Source: Geobacter sp. DSM 9736
GTDB taxonomy: Bacteria > Desulfobacterota > Desulfuromonadia > Geobacterales > Geobacteraceae
DNA length: 64,000 bases
Direction: 5' to 3'
NCBI RefSeq assembly: GCF_900187405.1
Contig: NZ_LT896716.1
Span: 1,550,001 to 1,614,000, forward strand
The translations under genes and the position numbers were made by a program. The notes below the pieces were generated by a model. That model ran no database searches and was not told the DNA's origin. It saw nothing but the letters and a program-made list of their open reading frames with translations. Below, piece after piece: positions 51,491-57,490 of the stretch (the stretch's first letter is position 1; every line of letters starts with the position of its first letter).

Positions 51491-51916
51491 CTAACGGCGC
51501 ACCGAAATTTCGGGATACGGCCACCCCTGCATCCCCTTTTCAAGGATGAAGAGGCGTTTTTCATCGATCCCCTTCTCTTTCAGGTAGTCGTAGGTTTTTT
51601 TCGCTCCACCGCCACCCCGCGGACACACTATCACGACCTCTTTGCCGGATGATGCCGCCACCTTAACCGCGCCATCGAGCTTCCGCCGCTCACTCTCGCT
51701 CTTGACAGGGAAAGCCTCGGTACGGATCGAGCCACGGAAATGATGCTTCTCGAAATCCGCCGGCTCCTGAATGTCGACGATGATGGTCGGCCTTCCGGTA
51801 AGGAGCCATTCGCGGAACTGGTCCTGCGTTACGTACTGGTAGCCCCACGCTCCCGCCGGAATGGCGGCAAGCACTGTCAGCAGCATTGCCATCGCAATAA
51901 TCTGTAGCCTTAGCAT
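51491..51916 (-). CDS. Exported rhodanese-like protein
   Basis: 141 aa. Signal peptide (about 1-23, AIPAGAWG), then one rhodanese domain: IIVDIQEPADFEKHHFRGSI and active-site loop VCPRGGGGAKKT with the catalytic Cys, then GMQGWPYP. Probably a periplasmic sulfurtransferase. Ribosome site AAAGGAA. Likely co-transcribed with the transglutaminase-like gene downstream. It keeps Cys, unlike the Sec-type rhodanese at 57 kb. Confidence 0.9.
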   Translation of the reverse strand: MLRLQIIAMAMLLTVLAAIPAGAWGYQYVTQDQFREWLLTGRPTIIVDIQEPADFEKHHFRGSIRTEAFPVKSESERRKLDGAVKVAASSGKEVVIVCPRGGGGAKKTYDYLKEKGIDEKRLFILEKGMQGWPYPEISVRR

Positions 51917-52250: not shown

Positions 52251-52832
52251 TTACAACCGAACAACAGGCCCCTGGAGGAGGCTCTCGGCAATCGTAAACA
52301 TATTGGTTACCGTTCCCGCCCGCAGCTCCTCCCTCCGCTCGAAAAAATCGAGGCAGACGCCGCACGACATGACCTCCACCCCTCGGTTCCCTAACTGATC
52401 GAGGGCTTCCAGAACTTCCGATCCTTCCGTAGTGAGGAGGACGCCACGATTGATAAAGAGCATCCTGTCGGGAAGGTCCGTGACATCGAGGAGGGTGATG
52501 ATGAAATTCTTCATGAGCAGCCTTCCCAGTTCTTCCGGCCCCTCCCCTAGCGCGTCGGAGGCAACGAGGATAACGTTTCTCCCTTTGCTCTCGGACCGTG
52601 TGAGGGAAGCGGTTGCGGTCCTCTCGGGCTGCAGCGTCAGTGAATATCCTCCCTCCACCTCCCGCTCCAGCACGGTGCAGCCTCGTGTAGTCGCGAAACG
52701 CGCGACGTTTTCACGGGGCGCTCCCCCATCCACTAGAATTTCCACCGGAGCTCCCGCCCCTTCTTCCAGCGCCCGCTTGGCCGTGACAACCGGCAGCGGA
52801 CATGCCATCTTCCTGCAGTCTATGGATCGCAT
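52251..52832 (-). CDS. yedF: YedF family sulfurtransferase-like selenium metabolism protein
   Basis: 193 aa from ATG 52832 (GAGGAG before it). N-terminal TusA-like domain with DCRKMACPLPVV near 5-16 and the conserved Cys-Pro; C-terminal DsrE-like domain with MLFINRGVLLTTEGSEVLEAL and the paired cysteines of VMSCGVCLDFF. This two-domain form is the selenium-associated YedF family, thought to handle reactive selenium or sulfur for selenophosphate use. Divergent from a LysR gene of the matching family over 135 bases. Confidence 0.92.
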   Translation of the reverse strand: MRSIDCRKMACPLPVVTAKRALEEGAGAPVEILVDGGAPRENVARFATTRGCTVLEREVEGGYSLTLQPERTATASLTRSESKGRNVILVASDALGEGPEELGRLLMKNFIITLLDVTDLPDRMLFINRGVLLTTEGSEVLEALDQLGNRGVEVMSCGVCLDFFERREELRAGTVTNMFTIAESLLQGPVVRL

Positions 52833-52967
52833 CTGCTCCTCATACCCCTTGACGTTGATAGACCGGTGTCGGCTGTTGTTAGTAAACCAGTTGACCCTTG
52901 CTTTGCAAATTGATAATTTCAATGAAACCGATTGGTACTATCGTTTTGGTAAATATGTGGAGACGAT

Positions 52968-53855
52968 ATGAATCTGAAGCAGCTTGAAGTATTCCAGGCG
53001 GTGGCGGAGAGCGGAAGTTTCTCCAAGGGAGCGGAAGCCTCCTTCATCACTCAATCCACTGTGAGCCAGCATATTGCGGCGCTGGAGCGGGAGTTCGGCG
53101 TAAAGCTTCTGGACCGGACAGGACGCGGAGCCCTGCTGACGGAAGGAGGAAAGGTCCTTCTCGAACAGGTGCAGCGGCTTGTAGCCGAGGCACGGGAGGT
53201 TTACAGGGTCATGGATCGGTTCAAAGGGCTCGACGACGTCCACCTGAGAATCGGAGGGAGCAACATTCCGGGCAGCTACCTGATCCCGGCGGCGCTCCCG
53301 CGTCTGCTCGCACGATTTCCAGGAATAAAGGTAACGGTGCTTCAGGGTGACAGCCGGGAAACGCTCCTTAGAGTAATCAAGGACGATGTTGAGATCGGTG
53401 TCGTCGGAAGCCGCTTCGCGACCGATGAATGCACCTTCCTCCCCGTCGGAAGGGATACGATCCGCCTGGTCGTAAACCGCCAGCATCCGTGGCGACGTCG
53501 CAGGAAAGTCCGGCTCGAAGAGCTGGCGGCCGAGGATTTCATCCTACGGGAGCCGGGCTCCGGCACGGGAAACGCAGTAATGGAAGCGCTGGAGCACGCC
53601 GGAGTACGGGTTCAGTCCCTCCGCGTCAGGGCATACTTTGGAAGCAACGAGGCGGTCAAGCATGCGGTAGCGGAAGGGGCCGGCATATCCTTTCTGTCCC
53701 TCGTTTCAGTGGCAAAGGAGATTGAGCGGGGAGAACTGGCTGCGGTTCACGTGGAGGGCCTCGCGATTACCAGGGAGTTCTTCCTCGTGGCGCGCGCGGG
53801 ACGCCAGTTGTCACCGGCTGCTGCGGCTTTCGAAAACGTGTTGCGGCTACAGTAA
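52968..53855 (+). CDS. LysR-family regulator, selenium metabolism type
   Basis: 295 aa. Winged helix-turn-helix at 1-60 (LKQLEVFQAVAESGSFSKGA, TQSTVSQHIAALEREFGVKL) and an effector-binding domain at about 90-295. The opening GSFSKGAEASFITQSTVSQH and the GSNIPGSYLIPAALP start of the effector domain fit the LysR group found beside yedF and Sec genes. Divergent placement suggests it controls yedF, as LysR regulators often do. Effector unknown. Confidence 0.9.
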   Translation: MNLKQLEVFQAVAESGSFSKGAEASFITQSTVSQHIAALEREFGVKLLDRTGRGALLTEGGKVLLEQVQRLVAEAREVYRVMDRFKGLDDVHLRIGGSNIPGSYLIPAALPRLLARFPGIKVTVLQGDSRETLLRVIKDDVEIGVVGSRFATDECTFLPVGRDTIRLVVNRQHPWRRRRKVRLEELAAEDFILREPGSGTGNAVMEALEHAGVRVQSLRVRAYFGSNEAVKHAVAEGAGISFLSLVSVAKEIERGELAAVHVEGLAITREFFLVARAGRQLSPAAAAFENVLRLQ

Positions 53856-57034: not shown

Positions 57035-57154
57035 GGTCCCTCCTTAGTTCGAAACGAATACCACCATCACGTTTCGCCGTCAAGCCGGCTCCTTGTCCCT
57101 GCTGCAGATTCCGATACACTTTATCCGAATACCTCTAACAAAGGAGGAACACCT

Positions 57155-57490
57155 ATGCCTGAGACAATGGAAATACGACGTGTCGATCCGACAGACGCAC
57201 GGCAGCGGACGCTTTCAGGGAAAGCGTTGTTAGCCTGCGCCTACGAAAGCGACGAGCTGTTCCGGAGAAATCGCCTCGAAGGGGCACTCTCCATGCAGGA
57301 ACTCACCTCACGCCTTCCGGGCCTCGACAAAAACCAGGAGATCATTCTCTACTGCGCCTGACCCGAAGAACATACATCTGCCGGTCTGGCAGCCAAACTA
57401 CAGAATGATGGTTACACAAATGTAAGTGCATTGCGTGGAGGGGTAGCCGCCTGGAAAGATGCAGGTCTTCCCTTCACGAGCGCACCGTAG
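57155..57490 (+). CDS. Selenocysteine-containing rhodanese-like protein (TGA read as Sec)
   Basis: 111 aa from ATG 57155 (AAAGGAGGAACACCT) to TAG 57488-57490, reading through TGA at 57359-57361 as residue 69. Up to the TGA the chain ends QEIILYCA, the strand before a rhodanese active-site loop; after it the frame continues PEEHTSAGLAAKLQNDGY and then NVSALRGGVAAWKDAGLPF, the standard end of a rhodanese domain. The Sec takes a place in the active loop where Cys occurs in homologues. A hairpin with a GGTCT loop starts 17 bases after the TGA. If read conventionally the gene would be a 68-aa stub without its C-terminal half. Confidence 0.85.
57359..57392 (+). promoter_or_regulatory. UGA(Sec) codon and bacterial SECIS-like hairpin
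   Basis: TGA at 57359-57361, then stem CTGCC (57378-57382), loop GGTCT (57383-57387) and GGCAG (57388-57392). The loop sequence and its 21-base distance from the TGA agree with the SelB-binding hairpin of E. coli fdhF, whose loop also carries GGUCU. Confidence 0.72.

Follow-up and report, generated by a model that had tools for sequence, protein, structure and literature searches.

A probable selenocysteine-encoding rhodanese-fold gene of a distinct subfamily in Geobacter sp. DSM 9736

Rhodaneses typically carry a D-x-R signature in their N-terminal strand and have been proposed as selenium carriers. Some of them contain selenocysteine (Sec), and a 2026 review distinguishes five rhodanese forms of selenoprotein, with no UxU entry in its table (PMC13188914). 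Among them, rhodaneses with a CxU motif are already known as form 3, represented by NCBIfam NF041203 and by TKB26178.1 (table 1 of the same review). Here we describe a gene from a 64,000-nucleotide stretch of the Geobacter sp. DSM 9736 genome, hereafter the window. Like the proteins of NF041203, its predicted product combines a rhodanese domain with C-x-U, which in the window reads YCAU. We regard it as very probable that the gene encodes a Sec-containing rhodanese-fold protein and that this protein belongs to a distinct subfamily.

The gene and the selenium genes of its genome

The reading frame consists of 68 codons, a TGA, 42 sense codons and a TAG (Table 1), and the original prediction had located the ATG, the in-frame TGA and the 42 further open codons exactly. 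It had also foreseen that a conventional gene call would miss the gene or end it too early; under translation table 11 the frame stops at the TGA. Translated with TGA as Sec, the motif L-Y-C67-A-U69-P spans this codon, and the product passes the Pfam Rhodanese model (PF00581) with 37.8 bits against a gathering threshold of 22.2. By eye, AGGAG-type ribosome-binding sites precede many of the relatives' genes as well, in a set for which the choice of start favoured such sites. The UGA at 57359 almost certainly encodes Sec, as the comparisons below suggest.

Table 1. Features of the Sec rhodanese locus and nearby selenium genes (positions within the window)
Feature	Position	Strand	Basis or remark
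Putative Sec-encoding rhodanese-domain gene	57155–57490	+	111 residues plus stop; open with TGA read as Sec
Ribosome-binding site AAAGGAGG	57140–57147	+	From sequence; 7 bases 5' of ATG 57155
TGA, probable Sec69 codon	57359–57361	+	TGA at the same codon in relatives
True stop TAG	57488–57490	+	Sequence
Cys67 codon, first residue of C-x-U	57353–57355	+	TGA instead in five relatives
Cys28 codon, in the C-A-Y-[DE] motif where rhodaneses have D-x-R	57236–57238	+	Invariant in the group
SECIS hairpin CTGCC-GGTCT-GGCAG	57378–57392	+	Stem 5 bp, loop 5 nt; covariation
YedF selenium-metabolism protein	52251–52922	-	197 bits against a cut-off of 110
Selenium-metabolism LysR regulator	52968–53855	+	285 bits against a cut-off of 250

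The search for selA, selB, selC and selD that had been proposed as a check found all four over their cut-offs in the host genome, a single contig of 3.96 Mb. The tRNA-Sec reaches 76 bits (gathering 47), SelB 378.6 bits (cut-off 242.25), SelA 609.3 bits (267.9) and SelD 351.6 bits (125), and SelD has an in-frame TGA of its own. Among 14 control genomes, the same cut-offs were passed by tRNA-Sec in 5, SelB in 2, SelA in 1 and SelD in 2. Decoding of UGA 57359 would be carried out by SelB with Sec-tRNA, aided by the hairpin just behind it, and would yield a single-domain selenoprotein of 111 residues with a predicted rhodanese fold. An ordinary residue (Trp or Cys) inserted by suppression or under a changed code would equally leave the frame open with TGA as a sense codon, but it is exceedingly improbable in a genome with Sec machinery and a TGA-containing SelD; moreover, several family members themselves end in TGA, and the 20 homologues without TGA have Cys, not Trp, at this position.

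The window had also been said to hold other selenium genes, and this is the case: YedF and a LysR regulator are encoded 3.3–4.9 kb from the Sec rhodanese gene, adjoining each other in divergent orientation. A second rhodanese-domain protein, encoded without TGA at 51491–51916 on the reverse strand, lies about 5 kb away and scores 36.6 bits with Pfam. Rfam returned a single ordinary tRNA as its one hit in the window, and ARAGORN found the same tRNA.

Conservation of the TGA, of the frame behind it and of the hairpin

In a search of 97 genomes, all 33 closest matches (E-value of 2e-25 or better, spread over 32 of the genomes and including the window's own) have TGA at the codon of Sec69. One genome, G060, carries two Sec copies of the subfamily (L028 and L162). 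A scan of a genome collection, seeded with one peptide pattern in the C-A-Y motif and another across the C-x-C motif, retained 80 of 82 relatives; 57 of these loci have TGA, 20 a Cys codon, and 3 are cut off before the codon. All 57 loci that carry C-A-Y-[DE] and reach codon 69 have TGA there, while the motif occurs in none of the 20 Cys homologues. Because one seed was the C-A-Y pattern, the TGA rows contain C-A-Y by construction; what the scan can tell is that a Cys codon is absent from every motif-bearing locus. The two-pattern seeding also puts Sec rhodaneses free of C-A-Y outside the reach of the scan; such proteins exist (L132–L135, L137, L191–L194).

Since the scan was seeded partly with the C-A-Y motif itself, we added a profile search, in which a profile of 37 rows was run against 395 genomes of the phylum with stops read through. 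It gave 27 matches of at least 89 bits in 26 genomes, all 27 with TGA, the next score being 68 bits; 22 of the matches were read singly and four correspond to L001, L004, L006 and L023, G411:C32 being the exception. Glycine replaces alanine in L174, L177, L185 and L188, so that C-[AG]-Y describes the motif more accurately. The counts of 33, 57 and 27 overlap, as some genomes appear in more than one search. Neither the pattern scan of the genome collection nor the profile search of the 395 genomes brought up a Cys ortholog inside the clade. As had been expected, distant homologues have Cys opposite Sec69: all 20 homologues without TGA have TGC or TGT there, and none of the 20 lies inside the clade. 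Such a clade, for which Cys orthologs did not turn up, lends itself to the question of why a protein needs selenium.

Members come from Thermodesulfobacteriota, Nitrospirota, Planctomycetota and Synergistota, together with some metagenome-assembled genomes (MAGs) filed under Myxococcota. SelA was sought in 50 genomes, namely those of 35 among the 57 TGA loci and of 15 among the 20 Cys loci; it exceeds its cut-off in 33 of the 35 genomes with the Sec gene and in 6 of the 15 with the Cys form. The 35 genomes are mostly from outside the named Geobacter relatives. The two genomes that have the Sec gene and lack selA, G102 and G104, are both MAG assemblies.

Behind the TGA the frame is conserved in the relatives and not degraded, as the Sec reading had implied, with two broken exceptions among the 57 loci. 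In L106 (identical to L190) the frame breaks 2 codons past the TGA, and in L082 a TAA follows after 11 codons, perhaps through decay or assembly error. The ratio dN/dS is 0.15 before the TGA and 0.19 after it in 26 non-independent pairs of 80–97% identity (L082, L106, L087, L093 and the Sec-x-Sec rows left out); judged by these substitutions, both halves of the gene behave as coding sequence. It is accordingly very unlikely that the TGA is a sequencing error, or a true stop in a pseudogene or in a gene for a 68-residue fragment. Although the standard call does end at the TGA and two relatives are broken further on, the same TGA recurs in several phyla, the sequence behind it is under purifying selection, and the hairpin that follows covaries.

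This hairpin had been predicted at exactly the place where we find it. It starts 17 bases past the TGA, leaving 21 nt between TGA and loop, and its GGTCT loop is presumably that of the E. coli fdhF SECIS. For bacterial SECIS elements, the review gives a loop of 3–9 nt, a stem of 4–16 bp, 16–37 nt from UGA to loop, a G within the first two loop positions and, in section 5, a minimum free energy of at most -7.5 kcal/mol (PMC13188914). Compared by hand with these geometric limits, those of bSECISearch, the element falls within all of them (loop 5, stem 5, GG, 21 nt), while its energy of -7.2 kcal/mol (ViennaRNA, 37 °C) narrowly misses the energy limit. Folding energy was dropped as evidence for a SECIS, as a 60-nt stretch prefers another fold and has a folding-energy z of -0.93.

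Across 63 distinct TGA sequences (L106 left out), the five pairs of the stem are Watson-Crick in 97% of cells, and the second loop base is G in all 63. Between codons 75 and 79 the third positions, which are synonymous, combine as T-A in 38 sequences, C-G in 21, A-T in 1 and otherwise in 3; the pair thus forms in 60 of 63, compared with a mean of 32.5 and a maximum of 47 in 100,000 shuffles. Its mutual information, 0.81, is the highest of all pairs; the second-highest, 0.76, falls on non-pairing positions, and relatedness alone can give such a value. In the 20 Cys homologues the stem pairs, from the outermost inward, are Watson-Crick in 0, 9, 14, 18 and 9, so that the codon 75/79 pair forms in 9 and the pair outside it in none, while two inner pairs also form in most of them (14 and 18 of 20).

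In a reduced set of 36 sequences less than 85% alike (L082 and L106 left out), 97.8% of cells are paired, against 15–59% in slid controls. Cells changed on both sides number 16, against 4.5 in shuffles and with none of 500 as high, and the covariation score lies above all 500 shuffles. Pairs changed on both sides (2) were matched by 170 of the 500 shuffles and further pair types (6) by 17; two of the five covariation measures did not go beyond the shuffles. It is the TGA in 33 of 33 closest matches, together with this covariation of the stem, that lifts the hairpin above chance. Judged from the alignments, the hairpin is under selection at the RNA level, and in our view the covariation outweighs the narrow energy miss. 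With its synonymous exchange of T-A and C-G, the hairpin illustrates cleanly how an energy cut-off would discard a bacterial SECIS. With selA to selD present, the frame conserved, the hairpin covarying and Cys found in distant homologues, the original reading of a Sec-encoded rhodanese is supported.

Active-site residues, candidate function and gene neighbourhood

An AF2 model with Cys in place of Sec (pLDDT 88.3) has the strand and helix order of a rhodanese domain, and among solved structures GlpE matches it best (Z 16.0, rmsd 2.5 over 105 residues). In this model Cys67 and residue 69 lie between strand 62–66 and helix 73–84, that is, in the active-site loop, where the TGA had been predicted to fall. 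From the strand side, sequence alignment pairs Cys67 with the usual rhodanese cysteine, in a loop that is two residues longer. Sec69 is the second residue of C-x-U, and it is Cys67, two positions before it, that aligns with the usual cysteine; it is thus not established that Sec replaces the catalytic Cys.

An alignment of 37 rows, in which Sec is written as C, has Cys at residue 28 in all rows, Cys or Sec at residue 67 and Sec at residue 69. D-x-R is absent in 37 of 37, and Cys28-[Ala/Gly]-Tyr stands there instead, with Cys28 at or beside the position of the rhodanese Asp, depending on the alignment. Five relatives (L096, L098, L104, L182 and L186) have a TGA at codon 67 as well, which would give Sec-x-Sec. 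Their first UGA lies 27 nt before the apical loop, within the 16–37 nt given in the review (PMC13188914), and one hairpin apparently serves both UGA codons. A quick tree of 71 rows requires 5 changes to account for these five, but well-supported branches force only 1; shuffled labels give 4.9. The replaceability of Cys67 by Sec would place residues 67 and 69 both in the redox chemistry, and these five natural variants bear on the question of selenium need. Outside the clade, L137 likewise has two UGA codons two residues apart.

Since Cys28 is invariant, residue 67 is Cys or Sec, residue 69 is Sec, D-x-R is absent in all 37 rows and Sec-x-Sec occurs in five relatives, we infer a selenocysteine thiol oxidoreductase, or an enzyme that handles persulfides, and not a classical sulfurtransferase. 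We give about even weight to a redox function, as a thiol oxidoreductase and not as a classical thiosulfate:cyanide sulfurtransferase. The active site would pair Sec69 with Cys67 and possibly with Cys28. Sec69 may act as the attacking or resolving selenol and form a selenenylsulfide to Cys67 or Cys28, so that the enzyme would cycle between a selenol/thiol state and a selenenylsulfide; small sulfur species (persulfide, polysulfide) or peroxides are candidate substrates. More tentatively, the subfamily may comprise obligate-Sec single-domain rhodaneses of four phyla (Thermodesulfobacteriota, Nitrospirota, Planctomycetota and Synergistota), in which D-x-R has given way to Cys28 and Cys/Sec-x-Sec forms a redox centre for the reduction of persulfides, polysulfides or peroxides. 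If so, a sulfurtransferase fold would have been turned into a selenium-dependent reductase with Cys28 as a third chalcogen.

The gene neighbourhood gives no pointer to a pathway through a conserved neighbour gene in the 58 copies with flanks of up to 4 kb. Clustering of neighbours around these 58 copies (57 TGA loci plus the window), reaching no more than 4 kb to either side and less at contig ends, revealed no conserved operon. The most widely recurring family, sensor-kinase-like by our reading, accompanies 7 of the 58 copies, and most other clusters join close relatives. When seven window neighbours were searched for in the 57 TGA loci and in L002–L030 (1.5 kb flanks), only the nitroreductase matched; it adjoins the Sec gene in the window and beside L100 only. 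The LysR regulator was looked for within the flanks. YedF, 4.2 kb away in the window and hence beyond the flank range, was searched for in whole genomes: among 31 relatives with the Sec gene it lies at least 243 kb away in 13 and on another contig in 18, and its nearness is peculiar to the window's genome.

These distances also bear on a role in sulfur or selenium transfer, in which Cys67 or Sec69 would carry a persulfide or perselenide and hand it on, for example to SelD; according to the review, the selenium donor systems for SelD are not settled (PMC13188914). The rhodanese fold (Pfam and the structural match to GlpE), the YedF and selenium LysR genes 3–5 kb upstream in the window and the presence of YedF in 32 of 32 genomes with the Sec gene would fit such an enzyme. 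We nevertheless hold it to be rather unlikely, given that D-x-R is missing in 37 of 37 rows with an extra invariant Cys, that YedF lies near the Sec gene in 0 of the 31 relatives and that the protein reaches 20.7 bits with the GlpE model, whose cut-off is 102.

Place among rhodanese families

Members of this group may well figure under 'rhodanese' or 'sulfurtransferase', without being set apart, in the 2007 selenoproteome of the Olavius symbionts, in the 2005 paper on bSECISearch or in PMC8318568, and we therefore make no claim of a first sighting. The open-access literature searched, which includes PMC9312934, PMC1088965, PMC1794560, PMC12013277, PMC2398784, PMC5029168, PMC8318568 and PMC13188914, showed no description of the subfamily. 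As gene calls end at the TGA and no NCBIfam model reaches its cut-off, many genomes probably have their copy cut short or overlooked.

None of the NCBIfam models of June 2026, the release used here, reaches its cut-off with the window's protein. NF041203 (rhodanese_LYCAU) scores 65 bits (E-value 5e-18), below its cut-off of 115; every one of the 37 members scanned gives a match to it, the best E-value being 5.1e-20. Its 5 matches over the cut-off in 97 genomes include no copy of the window's group. In a tree of 89 rows and 110 columns, a branch at 100/99 sets apart 56 rows of the group and a different one, also at 100/99, the 5 NF041203 rows, and the nearest row outside the clade is L107, a Cys protein of Dehalococcoidia (trees without L082 and L106; L087 is short there, its start being called too late). 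Filing under NF041203 was dropped in view of the score, the separate clade and the absence of group copies over the cut-off. Members of NF041203 include a form with Cys for Sec, L136, and of five members read, four keep D-x-R (L135 has D-V-D); a hydrophobic stretch can be made out at the N-terminus.

Several further Sec rhodaneses came up in the searches. L191–L194 and many weaker profile matches are C-x-U rhodaneses with an ordinary D-[VL]-R, L192 and L194 lying within open frames of more than 300 residues. By our reading of the sequence, the Sec rhodanese domain of L093 (3995–5383) continues in-frame into a patatin-like protein. L140, L141, L156 and L160 have the TGA motif C-[SN]-G-x-[ST]-U, with export probable from the look of their N-termini. 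Their Sec lies five residues past the Cys, unlike the window's C-x-U, and by our reading of the motif they belong with rhodanese form 1 (UxxS), whose selenoproteins likewise have Sec in the active-site loop. To judge from these sequences, the diversity of Sec rhodaneses seems to exceed the five published forms.

Outside form 3, the comparison extends to GlpE, the single-domain sulfurtransferase of E. coli (1gmx), which shares the whole-domain fold and which we take to be free of Sec; the window's protein stays below the equivalog cut-off of its model, NF001195. The CxC rhodaneses of Pseudomonadota (L109–L114, L116, L120–L125 and L128) have the same C-x-C-P loop, with Cys opposite Sec69. Unlike the window's group, they keep the usual V-D-[VL]-R in the strand (in L125, D-V-G), and the stem falls apart in them: its outermost pair forms in none of the 20 Cys homologues. 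TsoB (NF045694), a rhodanese/DsbD fusion, is also a rhodanese-related selenoprotein; its motif is U-x4-U (table 1 of PMC13188914), and its model gives 22.5 bits of 805 with the window's protein. C-x-U rhodanese selenoproteins are known; the window's protein very probably belongs to a distinct subfamily that current models do not separate.
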